Shown here piece after piece: positions 45,799-63,277 of a DNA stretch of 64,000 nt. The DNA is from a virus. A model generated the notes under the pieces. It did not search any database, was not told where the DNA came from, and saw only the letters and a program-made list of their open reading frames with translations. A program made the position numbers and the translations under genes. How positions within the stretch are numbered: position 1 is the stretch's first letter; the number at the start of each line of letters is the position of its first letter. The DNA lies in IMG/VR virus record IMGVR_UViG_3300045303_000182, positions 45,847 through 109,846 of that record, one strand, 5' to 3'.

Positions 45799-46275
45799 TC
45801 AGGAATCCTCCTCAGCCTGAGCCTCTTCCAGCGCGCGTCGCAGAGCGAGCCGCTCCTCCTCCTCTTCGTGCTCGGCCATCCAGTCCTTGAGCCTCTGGAG
45901 GTTCGCCGGGGTCAGCGGGCCTGCTGGGAAAGCGAGATCAAGCTGATCGAAGGCGAGCACAGGGAACCACGCCCAATCTCTCCCTTCCCATACCCCGATA
46001 CGGTGCGCGGCCTGGTCGTACTTGAGCGTGCCCACCTCGAGGAGCTCAAAGATCCGCAGTGCCTCCTGGATCTCGCGCGACCGATGAGGCTTCATCTCGA
46101 TGTAGTACTTGCCGTCCACGAAGTGGACCGGGAAGCCCTCGGGTTGGCCGAGGGCACCACCGAACTGCTGGGGACTCAGGTGGGGGCTGCGGTGGAGCGC
46201 GGCGCGGTCGCCGCGCTCCCGTAGCTCATCCATCGTCGCCTTGGGGATCTCAACCCAGGACGGATCAACGGTCAT
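45799..46275 (-). CDS. Hypothetical protein
   Basis: A 158-residue protein (PKATMDELRERGDRAALHRS, FVDGKYYIEMKPHRSREIQE) with an acidic coiled-coil C terminus (EHEEEEERLALRRALEEAQA). ATGA overlap with the LPxTG gene. A TACCCCGATA palindrome lies inside the gene. Unknown family. Confidence 0.45.
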   Translation of the reverse strand: MTVDPSWVEIPKATMDELRERGDRAALHRSPHLSPQQFGGALGQPEGFPVHFVDGKYYIEMKPHRSREIQEALRIFELLEVGTLKYDQAAHRIGVWEGRDWAWFPVLAFDQLDLAFPAGPLTPANLQRLKDWMAEHEEEEERLALRRALEEAQAEEDS

Positions 46276-47744
46276 GCCCGCCGGCGCTTCCTCCCTACCG
46301 AGAAGAGGGCGAGGCCCGAGCCGAGGGCGAGGGCAGCAATAGCGAGGTAGGTGCCGCTGTTGCTTCCGGTGGGTGGCAGTCCCTCGGGCGGGGGCGTGAC
46401 CCCTGGCGGGAACGGCCCGTTCGGATTAGCGCAAGTTGCGCTCTCCGGTGGGTAGGTGACGAAGGCCGTAGCCGTCGGGTTGACCGTGTAGGTCAGGTTG
46501 ATGCCGGCGCGGAGGAACTCGTCGCTGGGGTCGCGGATCCAGAAACCATCGCTGGTGAGGATCCAGCCAGGCACGTCAGCGATGGTTCCATCGCTGTTCA
46601 CGGTGGTACCTGGGTACAGCAAGTCCACGGTCGTGCCGGGGGCGTAGACCAGCGGTTGGGTCGAGACGACGTTGCCGTTGATGTCCGACATCGTCAGCGT
46701 CCCAGTGCGACCGGCCAACTCGGGGAACGTGTTCTGGAAGACGATCCTGATCGTCGGAACCTCAGCCACGCAGACTGTCGCCGCGGCTCCGAACGTGAAC
46801 GGTGGGGCTGGCACCGTCGTGGTAGTGGTCCCAGGGATCGTAGGCCCAGTCGTGGTGGTCCCAGGGATGGTGGTGGTGGTCGTTGTGGATGGCGAGGTCG
46901 TCGTCGTCGGCCCAGTCGTAGACGTGGGTGGCACCGTCGTCGTCGTCGGCGGGAGCGTCGTGGTCGTCGGCGGGAGCGTGGTCGTCGTCGTCGTTGATGT
47001 CGTCACCGCCGTGGTCGTAGTGGTAGGTGGGCAGTTCGGTGGGAAGGTCACGGAGGCCGTTGCTGTCTCCGGGCCGAGCGAGTAGATCAGGTTCACGTTC
47101 TGCGTCGTGTTGGGGTAGGCGATCGTCACCGTCTGGTTCGACTGGAAGGTCAGGAACACCGACCCGCCCGTGCTGAACGACAGCACTCCGACCTGACCGT
47201 TGAGGTCAGGCCGATCACCGAAGGTGATCGAGATCTCGGGCAGGAAGTCGGGACCGCAGAAGGCGAACACGTTGACCGCGAACAGGCTCGGCTTCGGAGG
47301 CTGGGTCGTGCTCGTCGTGCTTGTGGATGACGTTGTGGAAGTTGTGGATGACGTACTGGTCGAGGTTGTGGAACTCGAGGTCGTCGTCGTCGGCTTCATC
47401 GTGGTCGTCGTGGTCGGGTACGGCTTGTGGGTCGTCGTGGTCGCTGGCAACGTCGTCGTCGGAGCAACGGTCGTGGTCGTCGTCGGGTAGGTGTGCGGCG
47501 GCTTCTCCGTCGTGGTCGTGTCGTGCTTGTACGTCGTCGTCGTCTCGTACGGCTTGTGGGTGGTGGTCGTCACCTCCCGCGGCTCCGTCGTGGCAGTGGT
47601 CGTCGTGTAGTTCTGCGTCTCGACCTGCACGACTTGCTCGACCGGGGCTTCATCGGGCGGCTGCGGCGACTCTTCGGCCATCACTGCAGGCACTCCACAT
47701 GCCGCTAACACCAGGAGGCCCAGTAGCCCCAGTCGCCTGATCAT
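46272..47744 (-). CDS. Thr-rich LPxTG surface protein
   Basis: A 490-residue exported protein. N terminus: signal peptide MIRRLGLLGLLVLAACG with an apparent lipobox LAAC (Cys16). Residues ~45-150 and ~230-305 are mucin-like Thr/Pro runs (TTTTTVAPTTTLP). Between and after them are two similar beta domains (FAFCGPDFLPEISITF; CVAEVPTIRIVFQN). C terminus: LPPTGS (456-461), a hydrophobic segment, and RKRRRA, a classic sortase anchor. GGGGAG precedes the ATG. It would be displayed on the infected host, possibly glycosylated; superinfection exclusion or surface masking are possible roles (inference). Confidence 0.75.
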   Translation of the reverse strand: MIRRLGLLGLLVLAACGVPAVMAEESPQPPDEAPVEQVVQVETQNYTTTTATTEPREVTTTTHKPYETTTTYKHDTTTTEKPPHTYPTTTTTVAPTTTLPATTTTHKPYPTTTTTMKPTTTTSSSTTSTSTSSTTSTTSSTSTTSTTQPPKPSLFAVNVFAFCGPDFLPEISITFGDRPDLNGQVGVLSFSTGGSVFLTFQSNQTVTIAYPNTTQNVNLIYSLGPETATASVTFPPNCPPTTTTTAVTTSTTTTTTLPPTTTTLPPTTTTVPPTSTTGPTTTTSPSTTTTTTIPGTTTTGPTIPGTTTTTVPAPPFTFGAAATVCVAEVPTIRIVFQNTFPELAGRTGTLTMSDINGNVVSTQPLVYAPGTTVDLLYPGTTVNSDGTIADVPGWILTSDGFWIRDPSDEFLRAGINLTYTVNPTATAFVTYPPESATCANPNGPFPPGVTPPPEGLPPTGSNSGTYLAIAALALGSGLALFSVGRKRRRA

Positions 47745-48742: not shown

Positions 48743-49336
48743 CTAGCAGGAGCAGGAGAAGTAGGACGGCCTCCGTCCGCGTGGAAACGAGGCCCCTGCG
48801 TAGATCTCCATGTGGTCCCACATCAGGTCGGGGATCGAGCCGCTGGCGTCCTCGCCGTGGATGACGACGTACTCGTCGCCATCGTTGCCCTGGCTGACAC
48901 AGTCGCGAACCAACTGTTCGAACTCGATGTCCATGTCGCGGGCGAAGTTCCGCAGCCAATCCTCGCTGGCCCGCACGTTGGGGCCGATCAGGAGGTCGGT
49001 CGTCTCTCCCGAGGGCGGGAAGGCCGGGTGCTCCCACACATGGCGCAGGCTGGTGATCTCGCGGGGGTAGACGATCAGCCAGAAGCGCGCGTCGGGCTGC
49101 ACCGGCTGCCGCAGGAACGGATCCACGATGCCCACGCTGTTGACCCCGACAGCGCCGCGGTAGGCCAGACCGTCATCAGGGTCCAACTGGACGTGCTGAC
49201 CGGGCTGCAGGAGCTCACCAGCCTCGATCGGGTACACGGCGAGGTGGATTGCGTCCCGCTTCTCCTCCGGGCCGATGATCGAGCCGAGGGTGTCGAGGGC
49301 GTCTGTGTGGACAGTTGGTCGGGCGTCTTGCGTCAT
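48743..49336 (-). CDS. Conserved phage protein
   Basis: A 197-residue protein. RDAIHLAVYPIEAGELLQPG, GIVDPFLRQPVQPDARFWLI and VYPREITSLRHVWEHPAF follow a widely conserved phage protein of unknown function ('RDAiH.Av..v.a...L.PG ... GIVDPFL ... fWl..yPr.it.LrH.W.HPaF'). The C terminus has three Cys. Leaderless: TAGCTT (49344-49349) seven bases before the ATG. Confidence 0.65.
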   Translation of the reverse strand: MTQDARPTVHTDALDTLGSIIGPEEKRDAIHLAVYPIEAGELLQPGQHVQLDPDDGLAYRGAVGVNSVGIVDPFLRQPVQPDARFWLIVYPREITSLRHVWEHPAFPPSGETTDLLIGPNVRASEDWLRNFARDMDIEFEQLVRDCVSQGNDGDEYVVIHGEDASGSIPDLMWDHMEIYAGASFPRGRRPSYFSCSC

Positions 49337-52980: not shown

Positions 52981-54687
52981 TCACCACCCGCCGACGTGGT
53001 GGCGCTTGCTGGGCACCCACTCCATCAGTGCCTCGTACTGCACCGACTCTTCGCTCATCGTCACCGGGCGACCGGCGTTCACCGCGTCGCACACGGCAGC
53101 CTTGCGCTCTAGGACGACCCAGCCAGCCGCGTCGAACGTCGCGTCGCCGTCGCTGTAGTGGGCCTGCAGGACGTGCCACGTCACGCGCTCACCGGCAGCG
53201 GCGCGGGCCTTGGTGATGTCATCGACGCGCAGGTTGCGACCGGCCGTCTGAGCAAGGTCGCCCGCCGACCACGGCACCTGCACGTACACCGCGTCCGAGG
53301 CTGCGGTGAGCGTGACGGCCATGCCCGCCGCCTTGACCTGCGCGAGGCACACCTGCGCGTCACCGGCCTGGAACTCTGCGATGGCGTCGGTGCGATCGTC
53401 GCCGGTCACCGAGCCGTTGATCGACACGATGCTGATGCCACGGCCGAGCAGGGCCAGGCTCAGCTTCGTCCACACCGACTTGTGGTCGTAGAACGCGATG
53501 ACCTGCTTGCCCTCAGCGACGAGGTCAGCGATGTAGTCGGCGGCGTACTCGGCCTTGGCGACGCCCGCCTCTTCGCGGAGCATGCCCATCTGGACGACGG
53601 CCTGCGCGCGGCTGACCTTGTCGGCCCACACCGCGCCGCGCTCTTCGGCGCACAGGTTGTAGAAGTCCTTCTCGACCCGCTGGTACCGGCGCATGATGCT
53701 GTCGGGCAGCGTGGCCGGGACGATCGTCCAGCCGCTGTGGGGCAGCACGCCCTCGCCCAGGTCGGCCTTCTCGCGGCGCACGTAGGCCGTGCGGCGCAGG
53801 CAGTCGTGCAGCACCAGCGCGGTGGCCGTGTCGATGCCGGTGAACTTCGTGAACGTGCGCCCGCCCTTGGCACGGCCCTGGACCGGGGCGCAGTAGCGCC
53901 ACTTGTAGCTCGCCAGGCTCGACGCGCCAGGCGTGACGGCCTTGACGAGCGCCTCGCCGCCGACGATCTGCAGCGGGATGAACGCCTCGATCGGGCGGTT
54001 GGTGAGCAGGGTGCCGGTGGCACCGACGATCGGCGTGCCGACCGAGCGGCACCATGCGCCGACGGCGAGCATGACCTTGCTGCGGCCGGTCGGCTTGTCG
54101 CCGTTGCCCTTGTCGCGGTGAATCTCGTCGCGAGCGATCAGCGACGCGGTCTGCACCCAGGCGCTGGCGACGTGGTGCTTCTTGCCGTTGGCACCGACGA
54201 CCTCGTCGGTCAGCCAGGTGCTCATCGTGCGGCTGTCGTCGCTGATGAAGAACACGTCGGCGTCGGGCAGCGGGAGACGCTTGTGGCCCTTGACGATGCA
54301 CAGGCGCAGGTTGGGGAAGCACGCCGCCAACTCGGTGATGTAGCCACCCTCGGCCACCGGAGGGGCGACGATGATGGCGGGGCGACCGGTGGCCGCGATG
54401 CGCTCGGCGGCGAGCGCGAGCAGCACGGCCGTCTTGCCGAGGCCCATGTCGTCACCGACGAGGCAGCCGCCCCAGCGGGCGATCGACGCCTGGGCGTACA
54501 GGTAGGCGCTCGCCTGCCAGGGGTGGAAGGGGCGAGCGAGGCCGGGGATGACGACCGGCGCAGCCGGGGCGAGCGCCTTGCTGGCGGCGAGCCAGGCATC
54601 GTCACCGAGGCCGTGGAACGCCACGACGGGCGTAACGGGCGCAGCGGCCGCAGCGGCTGCGAGTGTGGGGTCAAACAGGTTGGTCAT
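52981..54687 (-). CDS. SNF2-type helicase / DNA translocase
   Basis: A 568-residue SF2 ATPase. Motif I DDMGLGKTAVLLAL (~80), DEIH in RDEIHR (~186), motif III GTPIVGATGTLLTN (~222), motif V/VI TLTAASDAVYVQVPW and QTAGRNLRVDD (~482), with an N-terminal HPWQASAYLYAQ Q-like motif. The layout is that of single-polypeptide Snf2/SMARCAL1-like phage proteins. It may remodel DNA or strip proteins during replication or repair. Minus-strand operon with the shared TTGGTT...GCTAGC promoter and a TATCCT -10. Confidence 0.8.
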   Translation of the reverse strand: MTNLFDPTLAAAAAAAPVTPVVAFHGLGDDAWLAASKALAPAAPVVIPGLARPFHPWQASAYLYAQASIARWGGCLVGDDMGLGKTAVLLALAAERIAATGRPAIIVAPPVAEGGYITELAACFPNLRLCIVKGHKRLPLPDADVFFISDDSRTMSTWLTDEVVGANGKKHHVASAWVQTASLIARDEIHRDKGNGDKPTGRSKVMLAVGAWCRSVGTPIVGATGTLLTNRPIEAFIPLQIVGGEALVKAVTPGASSLASYKWRYCAPVQGRAKGGRTFTKFTGIDTATALVLHDCLRRTAYVRREKADLGEGVLPHSGWTIVPATLPDSIMRRYQRVEKDFYNLCAEERGAVWADKVSRAQAVVQMGMLREEAGVAKAEYAADYIADLVAEGKQVIAFYDHKSVWTKLSLALLGRGISIVSINGSVTGDDRTDAIAEFQAGDAQVCLAQVKAAGMAVTLTAASDAVYVQVPWSAGDLAQTAGRNLRVDDITKARAAAGERVTWHVLQAHYSDGDATFDAAGWVVLERKAAVCDAVNAGRPVTMSEESVQYEALMEWVPSKRHHVGGW

Positions 54688-54727
54688 GGGATTCTCCGTC
54701 GAGTGGTAGGTGAACGGGTGAGAGGTC

Positions 54728-54760
54728 AGGATACAGGCGTGCTAGCAGAAACCAACACGC
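54728..54760 (-). promoter_or_regulatory. Shared-type promoter of the helicase gene
   Basis: Minus strand: TTGGTT (54750-54755), 16-base spacer containing TGCTAGCA, then TATCCT (54728-54733). One of six copies of a GCGTGTTGGTTTCTGCTAGC promoter in the right third. Confidence 0.6.
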
Positions 54761-54815: not shown

Positions 54816-55682
54816 TCACCAAGCCTTGGTGCTGCAGACCGGGCCGATGCCCTGCTTGCGCCACTCGCTGGTGAGGGTGATGCCGCACCGGCCGCACACG
54901 CCCAACTCCTTGCCGTACAGCACGGTGGCTGCCTGCGGGTCGAGGGCGATGGCGGCGAGGATGGCCTCGCGGCTCGCACGGTTGCGGATGGGGAACAGGT
55001 CGTCGGACGCCTGCGCCGAGACGAACACGAAGCCCTCCCACTTGCCGCCCTTCGCGCCGTGCTCGACGCGGTAGAACTTGACGATGCCGTCGTCGTCGGT
55101 GAGCGCGTAGCGGCCCTCGGCCACGGTGGGCGCAGCGACCGGCGCAGCCGCCGTCGGGGCGGGGCACTGGCCGTCGAGGTGGAACGTGTCCCAGCCCTTG
55201 CCACACGCCTTCTGAGCGATGCGACCGAGGCCCTCGGCCACCTTGCCGCCGCAGGTGACGCACTTGGCGGCGAACTTGTTCGGACGTACCGCGGCAGCCG
55301 TGGCGGGACGGTGGCGGCGAACGACGCTCAGCGCGTCGGTCAGCTTGATCGCGCAGGCGACGTTGTCATACTCGTCGGCCGTCCCGGCGAGCACGTCACC
55401 GACGTTGGCCGGGGCGTGCTGGTTGACGGCAGCGAGGTCGTCGGCCGTGAGGCCGTACGTGACCGCCTCGGCCTGGATCAGCTTGATCAGGGCCTTGGAC
55501 TGCTCGACCGTGCTCGACGCGTGCAGGGCGCACACTGTGAGCCACTGGCCGTTGTCGAGGGCGGCGAAGTCAACACCGGCCTGGGTGGCGGTGCCGCAGA
55601 AGAAGCACAGCTTGCCGCTGTACTTGGACGGGATCGCCTTCTGGAACCGGGCGAGTCCTGCGGGGGAAGTCTGAGTGGTCAT
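54816..55682 (-). CDS. Zinc protein with DUF6011-like C terminus
   Basis: A 288-residue protein. Two or three zinc-type sites: LCFFCG (~26-29), CVTCGGKVAEG (~140), and a C-terminal CGRCGITLTSEWRKQGIGPV followed by Cys, which matches the DUF6011 plan (C..Cg..Lt...s...GiGp.C). The middle is an Ala/Asp-rich domain. Likely binds DNA near the helicase and is transcribed by its own shared-type promoter (55721-55749). Function of DUF6011 is not established. Confidence 0.55.
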   Translation of the reverse strand: MTTQTSPAGLARFQKAIPSKYSGKLCFFCGTATQAGVDFAALDNGQWLTVCALHASSTVEQSKALIKLIQAEAVTYGLTADDLAAVNQHAPANVGDVLAGTADEYDNVACAIKLTDALSVVRRHRPATAAAVRPNKFAAKCVTCGGKVAEGLGRIAQKACGKGWDTFHLDGQCPAPTAAAPVAAPTVAEGRYALTDDDGIVKFYRVEHGAKGGKWEGFVFVSAQASDDLFPIRNRASREAILAAIALDPQAATVLYGKELGVCGRCGITLTSEWRKQGIGPVCSTKAW

Positions 55683-55720
55683 GGGGTGCTCACTTTCGTG
55701 GTAGGTGACGAGCAGTTACT

Positions 55721-55753
55721 AGGATGCCGCGGGTGCTAGCAGAAACCAACGCG
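55721..55753 (-). promoter_or_regulatory. Shared-type promoter of the zinc protein
   Basis: TTGGTT (55744-55749), 17-base spacer with TGCTAGCA, -10 CATCCT (55721-55726). The leader then carries CACCTACCA before the start codon. Confidence 0.55.
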
Positions 55754-57261: not shown

Positions 57262-57467
57262 GACTGCGCCGCCGTGAACGCGGCCAGCGCGAGCGCCTCG
57301 ACGCGCTTGGTCAGCTTGCCGTCGCCGCTGTAGGTGAACGTCGGCTCGCCGCCGTCCTCGCCGGGGCGCACGGTGATCGTGCCGAACCAGCCGTGGAACT
57401 GCCCGGACAGGCGCACCACGCCACCGTTCAGGTGGCGGGTGCTGTAGTCGTACTGCAGGCCGCTCAT
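57258..57467 (-). CDS. Small protein, unknown
   Basis: A 69-residue beta-rich protein (SGLQYDYSTRHLNGGVVRLS, GKLTKRVEALALAAFTAAQ). The ATG at 57467 overlaps the Ku-like stop by TGATG. No motif. Confidence 0.5.
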   Translation of the reverse strand: MSGLQYDYSTRHLNGGVVRLSGQFHGWFGTITVRPGEDGGEPTFTYSGDGKLTKRVEALALAAFTAAQS

Positions 57468-58276
57468 CACGCCACCTTGCCCTTCGCAGCCTTGGCCGCA
57501 TCGATGCTCGCCTGCAGGTCGGCCATCAGGTCACCGATGACGGGGACCGCGGGCTTCGCCGGGGCGGGGACGCCCTTGGCCTTGTTGTCCACGAACGCAC
57601 GCACCGCGGGCGCTGTGTCATCGGTGAGCACCGGGGTGCTGGTGCCGACCGCGTCGAGCAGGGCCTCGGCCAGCGCCAACTCGGCGGCGCTGAACTTGAA
57701 GCCGTCGTTCAGGTCACGCGCCTCGCGGACCTGATCGGCCGTGCGGACGTAGGTGAACGAGCCGTCGGCGGCGAGCAGGGCGTAGCGGGCGGGGCCGCGC
57801 AGGGCGACCCGGACGAGGGCGACGACCTTCTTCTTCCGCAGCACGGTGAGCAGCAGCGCGAACGCCTTCTCACCGGCAGCGTCGGCCTTGCCCTTGACGG
57901 CCTTCGGCCGAACCTGCGCCACGTCCTGCGCGGCGTAGTTGCCCACGTCCTTGACGGGGATGAAGGTGACGATGTCACCGACGCCCTTCGGGCAGGTGCA
58001 GTCGGCAATCTCGTCGTCGGTCAGGACGACCCACGCGCCGTTGCTGGCCTCGGCCATGCGGACGACGCGGTCCGACGGGATGACCTCGCCAGTGTCCTTG
58101 CGGATGGGCGAGCGGCCGACGGGGATCGATGCGTCGCCGTCGAGGAACTCGTTGCGGGAGACGCGTGTCTCTTCGGTGCCGGTGTAGACACCGAGCGGGA
58201 TGTTCAGCACGCCGAAGGCGAGCGTGAACGAGTTTGATGCCCGTTGCGGGGCGGGGGCGAGTGCGGTGGTGCTCAT
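57467..58276 (-). CDS. Ku-like DNA-end-binding protein
   Basis: A 269-residue protein. Residues ~15-150 fit the Ku core: FTLAFGVLNIPLGVYTGTEE (is.GL..ip.....at), GRSPIRKDTGEVIPSDRVVR, and SNGAWVVLTDDEI, as in bacterial Ku (yy.v..dG..ev...d.v....... g..vvltdeE). Phage Ku proteins (for example in Omega and Corndog) cooperate with host LigD to circularise genome ends. The remaining part (RKKKVVALVRVALRGPARYA) is also Ku-like. Leads a five-gene operon; shared-type promoter at 58317-58345. Assignment by motif; no ligase seen here. Confidence 0.65.
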   Translation of the reverse strand: MSTTALAPAPQRASNSFTLAFGVLNIPLGVYTGTEETRVSRNEFLDGDASIPVGRSPIRKDTGEVIPSDRVVRMAEASNGAWVVLTDDEIADCTCPKGVGDIVTFIPVKDVGNYAAQDVAQVRPKAVKGKADAAGEKAFALLLTVLRKKKVVALVRVALRGPARYALLAADGSFTYVRTADQVREARDLNDGFKFSAAELALAEALLDAVGTSTPVLTDDTAPAVRAFVDNKAKGVPAPAKPAVPVIGDLMADLQASIDAAKAAKGKVA

Positions 58277-58316
58277 GGGATTCTCCGATTGGTAGGTGTG
58301 GAGTGGAACGGGGATC

Positions 58317-58350
58317 AGGGTATCGAGCGTGCTAGCAGAAACCAACACGC
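58317..58350 (-). promoter_or_regulatory. Shared-type promoter of the Ku operon
   Basis: TTGGTT (58340-58345), 17-base spacer with TGCTAGCA, -10 TACCCT (58317-58322). Leader with CACCTACCA before GGAGA and the ATG. Confidence 0.55.
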
Positions 58351-58364
58351 CGATACGTGAGATA

Positions 58365-58544
58365 TCAGACGGTCGTGACGACCCAGCCGTCGCGCTCGAC
58401 GACCACGTCGTACTCCCGGAGGATGTACAGGGTGGCCCAGGCGATGAGCGCCCGGTCGGTGCGCTCGACGTGCGAGTCGATTTCGAGCGGCTCGCTCAGT
58501 TGCGGGTGGCTCAGGCGGTAGGTGATTTCGTGGGTGGTAGGCAT
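58365..58544 (-). CDS. Small protein, unknown
   Basis: A 59-residue protein (MPTTHEITYRLSHPQLSEPL, TDRALIAWATLYILREYDVV). Its start codon follows a shared-type promoter with only six bases to the -10 (CATCCT), so it is leaderless. First codons overlap the CCTACCA leader word. Unknown. Confidence 0.5.
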   Translation of the reverse strand: MPTTHEITYRLSHPQLSEPLEIDSHVERTDRALIAWATLYILREYDVVVERDGWVVTTV

Positions 58545-58856: not shown

Positions 58857-60131
58857 TCAGGCTCGGTGGGCAGCCTCGGCCGCAGCCTGCCGCAACTCTT
58901 CGTTGAGCAGGATGATGATCGACCGATCCTCAATGATCGACTCCACGATCGGCCGCTCGTTCGGGCCGAACATGCTCGTCAGCACGTTGAGGCCGACGAC
59001 CGGGCCGAACGTCGCCACGTTGCGCTCGCAGCGCTGCAGGGCGGCGGTGCCGACCGGGGTGCGGACGCTGTTGCGCTCGCGGGCCGTGCGGAGCGCGTCG
59101 CCCAGCAGGCGGATCGCCGCCGACTTGATCAGCTTCGTCTCCACGTCGCCGTTGTAGCCCCAGCAGACGTGCTCAAAGCGGTTGACGAACGCCTCGTTCT
59201 GCTTGCCCATGCCGACGTAGCCCTCGTTCAGCGTGCCGATGACCCACAGGTCGAGCGACGCCTGAGTGACCTCGGCCATGAACTGGCCCTTGTTGAACAC
59301 GGCCTTGTTGCGGTTGACGAACAGGTGCCGGTGGTCGATCAGCGGGTGCAGCGACGACGTGACGCGCGGGTCGAGCGCGTTGACCTCGTCCAGGTACAGG
59401 ATGCCGCCGACCTGCGCCGCCAACTCGACCATGCCGGGGAGCCAGACGAGCGACTCGACGCCCGTCGCCGGGTCGGTGTAGCTCGTCGTCTGGCCGAACA
59501 GGTCGAAGTCGGTGACGCCCGACGAGCCGCTGATCGTGAAGATCGGCATCGGCTTCGGCAGGCCGAGGCGCTCGGCCCACACGATGGCGAGCACTTCGAC
59601 CAGCATGGTCTTGCCCGACTGTGTGTCACCCTTCAACAGGACCGAGGCGGGGCGACCGGCGTTGTTGCTGTCGGCCCGGTACGGGTCGCTGGTGAAGGCG
59701 AGCAGGAAGTCGATGTCGGTCAGACCGGGGGCGACCTCGCGGCCGATGTACTGGCGGAACTTCCGCTTGCTCGGACGCAGGTGGTCGAGCCGCTGGTCCA
59801 TCGGATCGGTGATCGGGTCGAGGATGCGGGCGACCTGCGCCACGGTGGCGACGGCGACCTGCTCGGTGGCGACCAGCGTGGCGACGGGAGCCGTCAGCAC
59901 CGGAGCCGGTGCGGGAGTGGCGACCCCGGCGATGCCGACGGGAACGTCCTTCAACTGACGGGGGAGGATGTAGTAGTGCGTGCCCTCAGGCGTCTCGACC
60001 AGCACCTTGCGCTGGTTCGGCTCGCCGTCGGCGACGGGCTTGCTGTCGAGGATGGTGACGACCTCTCCGGCGAAGTCGCCGTCCTTGATTTCGTACTGCC
60101 ATCCGGTGAGGAGTGCTGCTGCTGTTGCCAT
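58857..60131 (-). CDS. MoxR/CobS-like AAA+ ATPase
   Basis: A 424-residue AAA+ protein. An N-terminal beta domain (residues 1-65, KDGDFAGEVVTILDSKPVAD) is followed by the AAA+ core: Walker A LKGDTQSGKTMLVEVLA (~166), TISGSSGVTDFDLFGQ, Walker B GILYLDEVNALDP (~242), sensor-1 region WVIGTLNEGYVGMG, and an arginine-finger-like FVNRFEHV. This is the CobS/MoxR pattern. It pairs with the divergent CobT-like VWA protein. Family members act as chelatases or as chaperones that assemble or disassemble protein complexes; here the target is unknown. Shared-type promoter at 60175-60202. Confidence 0.8.
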   Translation of the reverse strand: MATAAALLTGWQYEIKDGDFAGEVVTILDSKPVADGEPNQRKVLVETPEGTHYYILPRQLKDVPVGIAGVATPAPAPVLTAPVATLVATEQVAVATVAQVARILDPITDPMDQRLDHLRPSKRKFRQYIGREVAPGLTDIDFLLAFTSDPYRADSNNAGRPASVLLKGDTQSGKTMLVEVLAIVWAERLGLPKPMPIFTISGSSGVTDFDLFGQTTSYTDPATGVESLVWLPGMVELAAQVGGILYLDEVNALDPRVTSSLHPLIDHRHLFVNRNKAVFNKGQFMAEVTQASLDLWVIGTLNEGYVGMGKQNEAFVNRFEHVCWGYNGDVETKLIKSAAIRLLGDALRTARERNSVRTPVGTAALQRCERNVATFGPVVGLNVLTSMFGPNERPIVESIIEDRSIIILLNEELRQAAAEAAHRA

Positions 60132-60174
60132 GGGTATCGGTCCGTTCGGTGAGTGGTAGGTGGGAACGAGTACG

Positions 60175-60207
60175 ACTCTAGGCCGGTGCTAGCAGAAACC
60201 AACACGC
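60175..60207 (-). promoter_or_regulatory. Shared-type promoter of the AAA+ gene
   Basis: TTGGTT (60197-60202), 16-base spacer with TGCTAGCA, -10 TAGAGT (60175-60180). Leader with CACCTACCA at 60154-60163. Confidence 0.6.
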
Positions 60208-60420
60208 GTATCGCGATATCGGCAGAAACCTCGAGTTTCCCCTGGTCAGAGGGGGTGAGCTCCCCGAGCTCATATCTCGGTACCACACGCGAGACCCTTG
60301 CCAGCAACTCGACGTGCGAAGAATCTGCGATGCCGGCGGCGGGCGAAAACAGCCTCTGACCTGGACCTCGAGGCTCGCGCCGGCCGCCTCGACGGCATGT
60401 TCGCCCGATACCTCGGTACC

Positions 60421-60453
60421 GCGTGTTGGTTTCTGCTAGCAGGGGAGTAGAGT
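60421..60453 (+). promoter_or_regulatory. Shared-type promoter of the VWA gene
   Basis: TTGGTT (60426-60431), 16-base spacer with TGCTAGCA, -10 TAGAGT (60448-60453), seven bases before the ATG. The only copy on the plus strand, and apparently leaderless. Confidence 0.6.
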
Positions 60454-60460
60454 CATCCCC

Positions 60461-62794
60461 ATGACCACGCCACCTACCACCGTCGGGGGAAAGCCTCCGA
60501 AGAAGGCGCGGAAGAAAGTCACGACCGACCTCGGTCGTCAACTTCTCACCCGCGAACGTCAGCGCCTCAGCCGTGAGCAGGCTGCTCTTGCCGAGCAGCA
60601 GCTTCTGGAAGCCGAGCGCGCCCGGACCCAGCAGAAGCGCAACGTCAAGTCGGCCAAGCCGCTCGACATCGCTGTCAGCCGGTCGATCGTCAAGCGCTTC
60701 GCAGGCGTCCTCGCCTCCGAGGGTGTCAGCGTCCGCATCAGCGCCACGCCGAGCACCACGACCAGCGCCTGGACCGACTTCGAACAGATCGTCATCAACT
60801 ACGTGCAGCAGGACGACGACCGCGTGCTCGCCGCCACCATGCGCGGCCTGGCGTACCACGAAGGTGGTCACTGCCGGTTCACCCTCCCGTTCATCCAGCT
60901 TGCCGAGGCCGCGGGCCAGCCCGCCGACACGAAGCTGCACCGGGCGTGGAACTGCCTGGAAGATCAGCGGATGGAGACGGCCGTCGTGTCGGACTCGCCG
61001 CGCAAGGCTGCGTATCTCACGCCGATGATCATGCTCGACTTCGTTCCTACGGTGAACCACGCCGCCGCCAACTGGCCGCTGCTGGTCTGGCGTCGGTACC
61101 TCCCGACGCACATCCGCAAGGGCGCTCGCAAGCTGTTCGTCCACCAGCACAACCTGATGGGCCTCGACGGCGAGGCGCTCGCCAAGTCGATCGAAGCCGT
61201 CACCACGAAGTACGTGCTGGCCGACAACGCCGTGACCATGTGGGAAGCGGTTGTCGAGTACGCCGCGCTGCTCCAACAGACCGCTCCGTTCGCTGCGAAC
61301 GTCGATGACAACGCCATGGGCCACCAGCGCCAGTACAAGCGCTCCGAGCGCAACCTGGACGACTTCCTGGTCATCCCGGTCGAGGGCGGCATGGTTGACG
61401 AGGGTGCCGACGAGGCAGCCGACGAGGCCGACGAGTCCGACACGATCGACACGGTCGAGGGGTTCCAGCACTTCCTCGACATCCTGTTCGCGCTGCTCAA
61501 CGGCCAGGACATCCTGCCCCCGGTCATCTACGCCTCCAAGGGCGAGGGTGAGCAGGGCGAGGGCGCTGGCTCCCCGTCCGACGAGGCGCAGCCGCACGGC
61601 GACGCTGCCGACGAGGGCGACGACGAGGGCGACGAGTCCGACGACGATGCCGAGGCCGAGGGCGACGAGTCCGAGGGCGGCAAGGGCAAGGGCAAGGCTT
61701 CCGACGACGACACCGAGGGTGCCGACGACGACGAGGCCGAGGCTGGCTCCAACGGCTCCAACGACGACGACGACGACGACGACGAGGCTGACGCCACGGC
61801 GACGGGCGGCGACGACGACGGCCTGGACTTCGCCAACGAGCCTGCCGACGACGAGCAGGACGAGCAGGGCGGCGCGAGCGGCGAGCACAAGAACACTGGC
61901 GTGCGCGACGACCTCGACTACAAGAACGACGACGACCTGACCGACGAGGCGCTCCAAGAGGCGATCGATGAGGCTGCTGCCGCTCGCGACAGCGACCCGA
62001 CGCTCGACGGCGACGTGCAGTCGCTCCACGATGCGATCAACAACCGCACCAGCGACCTGCTGCCGTACAACGCAGGCGTCAGCCAGGACATCGCCGCCGA
62101 GGCGACGGGCCGCAACCTGGCCGACGACATCGAGCAGGCGTTCCGCGAGAACACGATCGACAAGGCTCCGGGCTGGGTCGAGGGTCAGCGTCGTGGCATC
62201 GTCAACGTGCTGCGCTACGAGACGCGTCGCCCCGGCGACGTGGAGTTCTTCCGCCAGTACACCGAGACGGACGCCCCCGGCCAGAACATCGCCGTGTCGG
62301 TCCTGCTCGACTACAGCGGTTCCATGGGCGGCGCGACGCTGGAACTGGCTCAGGCCGGTTACGCCACGAAGCTGGCTTGCCAGGCGCTCGACATCCCCTG
62401 CACCGTGACCCTGTGGGACACGCAGGCGACGGTGCTCTACGACGCCACCGAAGAGGCCGACCGCCTCCCGGTGATCGTCTCGGCCGGTGGCACCGACATC
62501 ACGGTGGCGGTGGCCGACCTCGACAAGCAGCGCTACGAGAAGGACATCCACATCGTCATCATCATGACCGACGGTGCGTGGTCCGGGGCGTGCGGCCAGA
62601 ACGGCTTCCTCGCTTCCTACAAGGGCGACGAGGGCCGGTACTTCATCGGCCTCGGCTACAACAGCGGCTGGGGCGACTCCGGTCCGGGGATGGCCGAGAA
62701 CCTGCGCCGCTACGGGTGCGACGAGGCCCACGGCATCGCCTCCCTGATGGAGATTCCCCGCTACTTGGAGCAGGCGCTGGTCGCCTTCTCCTGA
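60461..62794 (+). CDS. CobT-like VWA protein with HExxH motif
   Basis: A 777-residue protein. Residues ~1-60 are basic and helical. HEGGH (133-137) with NCLEDQRMETAVV after it is the CobT/VWA-associated HExxH plus LEDxR element. Residues ~320-510 are strongly acidic Asp/Glu/Gly repeats. The C-terminal VWA domain has MIDAS DYSGSMGG (Asp617), a Thr in GGTDITVAV and TDGAW (Asp704). With the divergent AAA+ ATPase it makes a CobS-CobT-like pair. In the cobaltochelatase the acidic part and MIDAS touch the ATPase; a metal-loading or remodelling complex is the likely form. No CobN partner is seen. Terminator at 62811-62841. Confidence 0.8.
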   Translation: MTTPPTTVGGKPPKKARKKVTTDLGRQLLTRERQRLSREQAALAEQQLLEAERARTQQKRNVKSAKPLDIAVSRSIVKRFAGVLASEGVSVRISATPSTTTSAWTDFEQIVINYVQQDDDRVLAATMRGLAYHEGGHCRFTLPFIQLAEAAGQPADTKLHRAWNCLEDQRMETAVVSDSPRKAAYLTPMIMLDFVPTVNHAAANWPLLVWRRYLPTHIRKGARKLFVHQHNLMGLDGEALAKSIEAVTTKYVLADNAVTMWEAVVEYAALLQQTAPFAANVDDNAMGHQRQYKRSERNLDDFLVIPVEGGMVDEGADEAADEADESDTIDTVEGFQHFLDILFALLNGQDILPPVIYASKGEGEQGEGAGSPSDEAQPHGDAADEGDDEGDESDDDAEAEGDESEGGKGKGKASDDDTEGADDDEAEAGSNGSNDDDDDDDEADATATGGDDDGLDFANEPADDEQDEQGGASGEHKNTGVRDDLDYKNDDDLTDEALQEAIDEAAAARDSDPTLDGDVQSLHDAINNRTSDLLPYNAGVSQDIAAEATGRNLADDIEQAFRENTIDKAPGWVEGQRRGIVNVLRYETRRPGDVEFFRQYTETDAPGQNIAVSVLLDYSGSMGGATLELAQAGYATKLACQALDIPCTVTLWDTQATVLYDATEEADRLPVIVSAGGTDITVAVADLDKQRYEKDIHIVIIMTDGAWSGACGQNGFLASYKGDEGRYFIGLGYNSGWGDSGPGMAENLRRYGCDEAHGIASLMEIPRYLEQALVAFS

Positions 62795-62841: not shown

Positions 62842-62870
62842 TTCGGCCATCACCTACCAAGAGGTACCCC

Positions 62871-63041
62871 ATGAACCGATACGAGAAGGCGTTCCACGAA
62901 ACGCACAGCGTCCTGTCCGAGTGGCTGCCCGACGCGGAGCCGTGGAAGGTGGACACGATCACGCGCAAGGTGGTCGAGAGACTCATCGCCAAGGGCGTCG
63001 TGCAGAGCACCGACCCGGACGAACTGAGCGTGCCGTCGTGA
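62871..63041 (+). CDS. Small protein, unknown
   Basis: A 56-residue helical protein (NRYEKAFHETHSVLSEWLPD, WKVDTITRKVVERLIAKGVV). Preceded by a CACCTACCAAGAGG leader with AAGAGG as ribosome site. Starts a row of overlapping small plus-strand genes. Confidence 0.5.
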   Translation: MNRYEKAFHETHSVLSEWLPDAEPWKVDTITRKVVERLIAKGVVQSTDPDELSVPS

Positions 63042-63277
63042 GGGCGCACATGGCGCGCTTCCCACTGACCGATCACGCTCAGCAGAGGCGCAAGCAGATG
63101 GGCGTGAGCGAGGACAGAATCCTCGACGCGCTCAACCACCCCGAGGCCGTCTACCCCGGCTCACAGGGCCACCCAGGGGGTCGTACGTGCCGCCAGAAGG
63201 GTGACATCGTCGTGATCACCGACGATGCGACCGGCGAGGTTGTCACAGTCCTGTGGCACGGCAAGGAGGGCCGATGA
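63038..63277 (+). CDS. DUF4258-like protein
   Basis: A 79-residue protein. PLTDHAQQRRKQMGVSEDRI, NHPEAVYPG and IVVITDDATGEVVTVLWH match the DUF4258 plan (fs.HA..Rm.ergis...i..ai..p.......g....  .v.vivd...g.ivTv). The GTG at 63038 overlaps the previous stop (GTGA); an ATG lies four codons later. DUF4258 proteins resemble RelE/BrnT-type toxins, but a toxic function is not shown here. Confidence 0.55.
   Translation: MRAHMARFPLTDHAQQRRKQMGVSEDRILDALNHPEAVYPGSQGHPGGRTCRQKGDIVVITDDATGEVVTVLWHGKEGR

Follow-up and report, generated by a model that had tools for sequence, protein, structure and literature searches.

The window analysed here is a 64,000-nucleotide stretch of DNA (positions 45847-109846 of the 109,846-bp virus record IMGVR_UViG_3300045303_000182) and contains a divergent gene pair coding for a MoxR-family AAA+ ATPase and a CobT-like VWA protein that carries an HExxH domain at its N-terminus. 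The pair itself is a known kind of phage MoxR/zincin-VWA machine (phage "CobST" or MoxR plus metallopeptidase-vWA), and its likely function is changed by the link with Ku, a SNF2-like helicase and a DUF6011 protein described below. With about even confidence, the pair is assigned to a phage module for DNA metabolism whose genes are co-regulated, and its task there would be the remodelling or cleavage of protein complexes on DNA, perhaps including Ku. This module would comprise the AAA+ ATPase, the zincin-VWA protein, the helicase, the DUF6011 protein and, in the lineage of the window, Ku. In phage genomes, AAA+/VWA pairs are routinely filed under cobalamin or porphyrin biosynthesis and listed among the auxiliary metabolic genes, or a role as virion chaperones is guessed; the conserved, co-regulated link reported here points instead to work on phage DNA, with Ku as a concrete, testable client in one branch. 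The link was not found in the literature searched; as this comprised open-licence papers only, the negative is a weak argument for novelty.

The pair and its main sequence elements are located as follows (aa, amino acids; ORF, open reading frame; MIDAS, metal ion-dependent adhesion site).

58857-60131, minus strand: MoxR-family AAA+ ATPase, 424 aa (intact ORF; Pfam AAA_5, E 1.2e-13)
60461-62794, plus strand: CobT-like VWA protein, 777 aa (intact ORF; alignment; AlphaFold2 model)
60857-60871, plus strand: HEGGH, codons 133-137, forming a putative zinc site with LEDQRME (codons 166-172), as judged from HExxH conservation and model topology
62309-62326, plus strand: MIDAS motif DYSGSM, codons 617-622, followed by GGTD (676) and MTDG (702)
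60175-60202, minus strand: promoter-like element of the AAA+ gene, TTGGTTTCTGCTAGC-N7-TAGAGT
60426-60453, plus strand: promoter-like element of the VWA gene, TTGGTTTCTGCTAGC-N7-TAGAGT, whose -10-like box stops 8 nt short of the ATG

A preliminary description of this DNA had proposed a complete ATPase/VWA pair with divergent promoters of the same type. Both genes are indeed intact, their ATPase, HEGGH and MIDAS motifs are confirmed, and the two genes, which lie head to head across a 329-bp gap, are preceded by near-identical promoter-like elements.

In the AAA+ protein, the Walker A motif GDTQSGKT (residues 168-175), the Walker B motif ILYLDE (244-249) and the triplet NRF (317-319) are recognized, and the Walker A/B, sensor and arginine residues of MoxR-type ATPases are all present. 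In an alignment of 16 relatives, G168, G173, K174, T175, D248, E249, N302, R318 and R348 are invariant. The AlphaFold2 model (mean predicted local distance difference test score 83.9) comprises a small N-terminal beta domain of approximately residues 1-65, a loop of low confidence (68-99) and the ATPase domain that follows it; from the GPxxGxxV pattern of the relatives, the N-terminal domain can be read as KOW/SH3-like. The top Foldseek matches of the model are CbbQ and NorQ, and the nearest solved relatives by sequence profile are Midasin, CbbQ and NorQ.

The VWA protein is composed of four parts, namely a helical, zincin-like N-terminal domain bearing the HExxH motif, an acidic linker, a set of pre-VWA helices and a C-terminal, MIDAS-bearing VWA domain. 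Its acidic stretch (residues 361-490) consists of 42% aspartate plus glutamate, and the linker, modelled with very low confidence, appears disordered. For comparison, scans of viral contigs yielded 95 loci with the AAA+ gene, of which 47 were retained as non-redundant after dropping those at least 90% identical. HExxH is kept in all 47 of the corresponding VWA proteins, always N-terminal to the VWA domain, and is followed by a LED..R..E-like motif in 39 of the 47 according to a strict regular expression. In the AlphaFold2 model, the HExxH helix comes after three strands and is itself followed by a long helix containing LEDQRME, which is the usual zincin order; hence, the domain is likely to bind zinc, either as a peptidase or in a structural role. 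At the other end of the protein, D617, S619, S621, M622, G676, T678, T703 and D704 are invariant in 18 aligned VWA proteins, and DxSxS is found in 46 of the 47, the sole exception being a truncated ORF. The VWA domain is structurally closest to the Rea1 MIDAS and NorD VWA domains, which, together with the matches of the ATPase to CbbQ, NorQ and Midasin, all of them MoxR-type machines that have VWA partners, counts in favour of the module reading; further structural matches were obtained with ORF892 of Acidianus two-tailed virus (ATV; E 3.3e-4) and with VWA proteins of the haloarchaeal viruses HCTV-2 and HHTV-2.

The link beyond the pair became apparent from the neighbouring genes.

58365-58544, minus strand: 59-aa ORF between the AAA+ and Ku genes, function unknown
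57467-58276, minus strand: Ku, 269 aa, the first gene of appreciable size downstream of the AAA+ gene (Pfam Ku, E 3.9e-15; phrog_4873)
54816-55682, minus strand: DUF6011/phrog_636 protein, 288 aa
52981-54687, minus strand: SNF2-like superfamily-2 helicase, 568 aa (Pfam Helicase_C, E 2.4e-11; phrog_62, E 1.7e-46)
58579, minus strand: promoter word with one mismatch, ahead of the 59-aa ORF
58318-58345, minus strand: promoter word upstream of Ku
55722-55749, minus strand: promoter word upstream of the DUF6011 gene
54728-54755, minus strand: promoter word upstream of the helicase gene

A common promoter word thus stands ahead of the helicase, DUF6011, Ku, 59-aa, AAA+ and VWA genes. When up to three mismatches are allowed, TGTTGGTTTCTGCTAGC occurs seven times in the window against 0.09 occurrences expected, and in the whole record the core motif is almost confined to the island from the helicase to the VWA gene. 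This co-promoter island exceeds the pair, as it reaches back to the helicase at 52981-54687. It was missed in the preliminary description, whose suggestion that the pair remodels a host or phage complex was a fair generic guess that did not pin the complex down. The exact word was found in none of the other viral contigs and is therefore specific to this phage. In case of the VWA gene, the position of the -10-like box suggests that the mRNA may be leaderless.

A second shared element is the 9-bp word CACCTACCA. It occurs eight times in exact form in the window, where 0.21 copies would be expected, and is absent from those further parts of the record that were examined (L004-L006). The copies with assigned positions are these.

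54704-54712, minus strand: leader element of the helicase gene
55699-55707, minus strand: copy in the DUF6011 leader
58290-58298, minus strand: copy in the Ku leader
60154-60162, minus strand: copy in the AAA+ leader
60471-60479, plus strand: copy just inside the start of the VWA gene
62851-62859, plus strand: copy before the ORF at 62871

Four copies lie 16-25 nt before the starts of the helicase, DUF6011, Ku and AAA+ genes, and a fifth lies 13 nt before the 62871 ORF. The element is comparable in kind to the start-associated sequences of some mycobacteriophages. The ORF at 62871-63041 (plus strand), which carries this leader, has relatives in other Ku-bearing phages; overlapping it in another frame, an ORF at 62961-63277 (plus strand) gives a weak DUF4258 match (E 0.0009, below cut-off).

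Shared upstream words were also found in relatives. In locus L036, the VWA, DUF6011 and helicase genes have GTGTGTGATACG in common at a similar distance from the start; in L049, leader words are common to the AAA+, helicase, DUF6011 and Ku genes; and in L023, CGTGTTGTGTTAC is common to the AAA+ and VWA genes. All of these differ from the word of the window, so that co-regulation seems to have been kept while the motif changed, and the overall pattern in these upstream regions supports conserved co-expression. The gap between the AAA+ and VWA genes of L023 (L023:7637-8000) additionally contains three copies of an operator-like imperfect palindrome, TGTTGTGACAACAC.

Linkage, too, persists among the relatives. 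The VWA gene adjoins the AAA+ gene in 47 of 47 loci, and the helicase and DUF6011 genes lie near the pair in at least 29 and at least 20 of them, respectively, both counts being lower bounds as the stretches available for the relatives end about 8 kb from the match. Gene orders vary and the linkage stays (helicase-AAA-VWA; AAA-VWA-helicase; DUF6011-helicase-VWA-AAA; VWA<AAA>Ku-DUF6011-helicase). Ku accompanies 14 of the 47 pairs, and all 14 have the divergent VWA<AAA>Ku arrangement, so that it occurs with 14 of 18 divergent pairs versus none of 29 co-directional ones; a diverged Ku was searched for behind the AAA+ gene in the Ku-less divergent loci L028, L058, L067 and L074, and none was found. 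In a maximum-likelihood tree of the AAA+ proteins, the window falls into a group of ten, all with Ku, at a support of 100/100. The presence of Ku requires three changes on this tree versus 12.3 in shuffles, and Ku may still have been acquired only once. Among cellular sequences, a single related locus was recovered (L057, JAKPQA010000047.1) on a contig binned as Armatimonadota, which is a prophage or a misbinned virus; it shows a VWA<AAA>Ku>DUF6011 layout and a long branch.

The beta-barrel core of Ku scores 56.7 bits against a curated Pfam cut-off of 25, the protein matches phrog_4873 (Ku-like DNA end binding) with E 1.7e-14, and among bacterial Ku chains in the PDB the best match (E 9.8e-11) spans residues 7-264 of 269, so that the C-terminus is present. 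A tblastn search with this Ku over 50,697 phage records gave no match at E 1e-3, which marks it as a divergent lineage. The 59-aa ORF shares an 82%-identical stretch of 50 aa with another Ku-bearing relative (L037), and the PDB matches of the helicase are SNF2/Rad54-type chains. A phage-encoded ATP-dependent ligase for non-homologous end joining (NHEJ) was considered as well and had to be rejected, as none is present in 16 records; this absence fits a phage Ku, because the host is expected to supply LigD.

As to mechanism, the known MoxR-VWA machines Midasin, NorQ-NorD, CbbQ-CbbO and RavA-ViaA offer a template. By analogy, the AAA+ protein probably forms a ring, onto which the VWA domain would dock in order to aim it at a client, and the HExxH domain of the VWA partner would then cleave or clamp that client. 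NorQ-NorD and CbbQ-CbbO provide the closest solved structures for the ATPase, with NorD also among the best for the VWA protein; unlike in the present pair, their clients are nitric-oxide reductase and Rubisco, and they are not phage systems. To our knowledge, neither NorD nor CbbO contains an HExxH domain. Because of the DNA-metabolism neighbourhood, the most likely clients here would be protein complexes bound to phage DNA. In the lineage of the window, Ku would be the natural candidate and might be in physical contact with the pair: its closed ring bridges DNA ends or protects them and would need stripping after their joining, recombination or packaging. Since Ku encircles the ends, it would otherwise remain on the joined DNA, and in human cells the AAA+ protein VCP/p97 has been proposed, though not proven, to extract it (PMC4431666).

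A more specific version of the proposal, which we consider rather improbable, is a viral machine for unloading Ku and clearing DNA-bound proteins, in which the ring would pull and the HExxH domain would cut trapped proteins including Ku. Such a phage machine would be a functional analogue of eukaryotic p97, or of p97 plus a SprT-type protease. If correct, this would bear on the question of how the Ku rings of prokaryotes come off DNA once it has been joined.

Several observations weigh against the module and against Ku as its client. No solved zincin was matched in the structural comparison of the VWA protein model, and the HExxH motif may be structural. Shared promoter words indicate co-expression, not joint function, and those of the relatives emerged from about 50 comparisons with plain shuffles as control, in which single weak pairs are unreliable. 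For 33 of the 47 pairs, no Ku was found in the stretch covered; therefore, Ku cannot be the only client and is maybe a lineage-specific passenger. Relatives from Gordonia and Brevibacterium show neither a helicase match nor Ku.

The alternative that survives best, although it is still unlikely, is an accidental Ku link, with the pair having a general phage role and Ku being a lineage-specific insertion for genome circularization by host LigD, as in the mycobacteriophages Corndog and Omega. The 14 of 47 occurrences and the three label changes on the tree are in line with this, as is the missing phage ligase, and phage Ku has a known role of its own in NHEJ-type circularization with host LigD (PMC4351075, PMC3706429, PMC7719229). 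Like the window, Corndog and Omega encode a single-domain Ku without an ATP-dependent ligase; unlike theirs, the Ku of the window belongs to a divergent lineage and is tied to a MoxR-VWA pair, and no kin of Corndog or Omega occurred among the matches to the AAA+ or VWA proteins. An accidental link is, however, harder to reconcile with the promoter word and leader element that Ku has in common with the pair, and with its retained position behind the AAA+ gene in diverged phages.

A virion assembly chaperone-protease, by which the pair would fold and process structural proteins, is a weaker candidate again. Such a role was proposed for jumbo tailed phages, where a MoxR ATPase likewise adjoins a vWA protein fused to an N-terminal HExxH metallopeptidase domain (PMC7824862), and ATV p618/p892, of which ORF892 matches the VWA model as mentioned above, act in tail development (PMC3893208). 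The pair of the window differs from that of the jumbo phages in being divergent, residing in a phage of about 110 kb and being co-regulated with Ku, helicase and DUF6011 genes. Structural genes do not share its promoter words, at least 17 kb separate it from the large terminase gene, and the helicase linkage recurs across many relatives, all of which speaks against virion processing.

Even less probable is host takeover or counter-defence, in which the pair would dismantle or cleave a host complex (e.g. a nuclease or defence assembly that attacks the ends of the phage DNA), while Ku would shield these ends. MoxR-VWA and peptidase fusions are known from conflict systems (PMC7159879), and Ku plus an AAA+/protease would suit the protection of phage DNA. 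However, neither the pair nor Ku matched any defence model (PADLOC) at E 0.01, and the pair is ancient and broadly retained across related phages, unlike fast-changing counter-defence genes. An origin from a defence system was rejected on the same PADLOC result, the helicase matches there being generic SF2.

The remaining question is that of cobalamin. Solved CobT (PDB 9uka) matches the VWA protein from the linker through the pre-VWA helices into the beginning of the VWA domain (E 9.6e-4, in a match with a strong bias in composition), so that common descent with CobT is likely and the earlier label "CobT-like" is fair as a matter of ancestry, not of function. A true CobS-CobT pair that joins host CobN and raises cobalamin synthesis, e.g. 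for a B12-dependent ribonucleotide reductase, is the least probable reading: hijacking of host CobN was proposed for viral "cobST" (PMC8651126), the PHROG matches include "porphyrin biosynthesis" for the AAA+ protein and, for some relatives of the VWA protein, "cobalamin biosynthesis protein", and a CobN of host origin could still be the partner, but CobN (PF02514) gave no match in the 109,846-bp record, the AAA+ protein matched no CobS equivalog or other cobaltochelatase model of NCBIfam at E up to 1, Pfam CobT_C stayed below cut-off on the VWA protein (E 0.024; 14.7 bits versus 21), no CobT counterpart was found for the HExxH region, and the genes conserved around the pair belong to DNA metabolism. 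Nesting within cellular CobST was judged from family models and PDB profiles. Cobalt chelation as the main function was rejected on the missing CobN and CobS-model matches, in agreement with the preliminary description, which had held cobalt insertion improbable and had named phylogenetic nesting inside true CobST together with a CobN gene elsewhere in the genome as the contrary finding; its statement that CobN and cobalamin genes are absent holds for CobN, the other cobalamin genes not having been searched individually. The nearness of the ATPase to Midasin, CbbQ and NorQ points the same way. The two-gene AAA+/vWA cluster resembles the viral "CobST" of haloarchaeal tailed viruses and cyanophages (PMC8651126), from which it differs in the missing CobN, in an AAA+ protein that is not CobS by curated model and in its DNA-metabolism neighbourhood.

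The record derives from a tailed phage, as it encodes a large terminase (in the window) and, further left, a DnaB-like helicase, a primase, a DNA polymerase and a UvsX-like recombinase. Genes from its left end (L004:1-7000) adjoin the VWA gene in relatives, so that the record seems to close on itself, and a nearly complete, circularly permuted genome is probable. Elsewhere in the window, a 490-aa protein (46272-47744, minus strand) shows a sub-threshold match to a Gram-positive LPXTG anchor at its C-terminus, which is odd in a phage gene, and a 197-aa protein (48743-49336, minus strand) matches phrog_11912 (function unknown) strongly, with E 1.9e-51.

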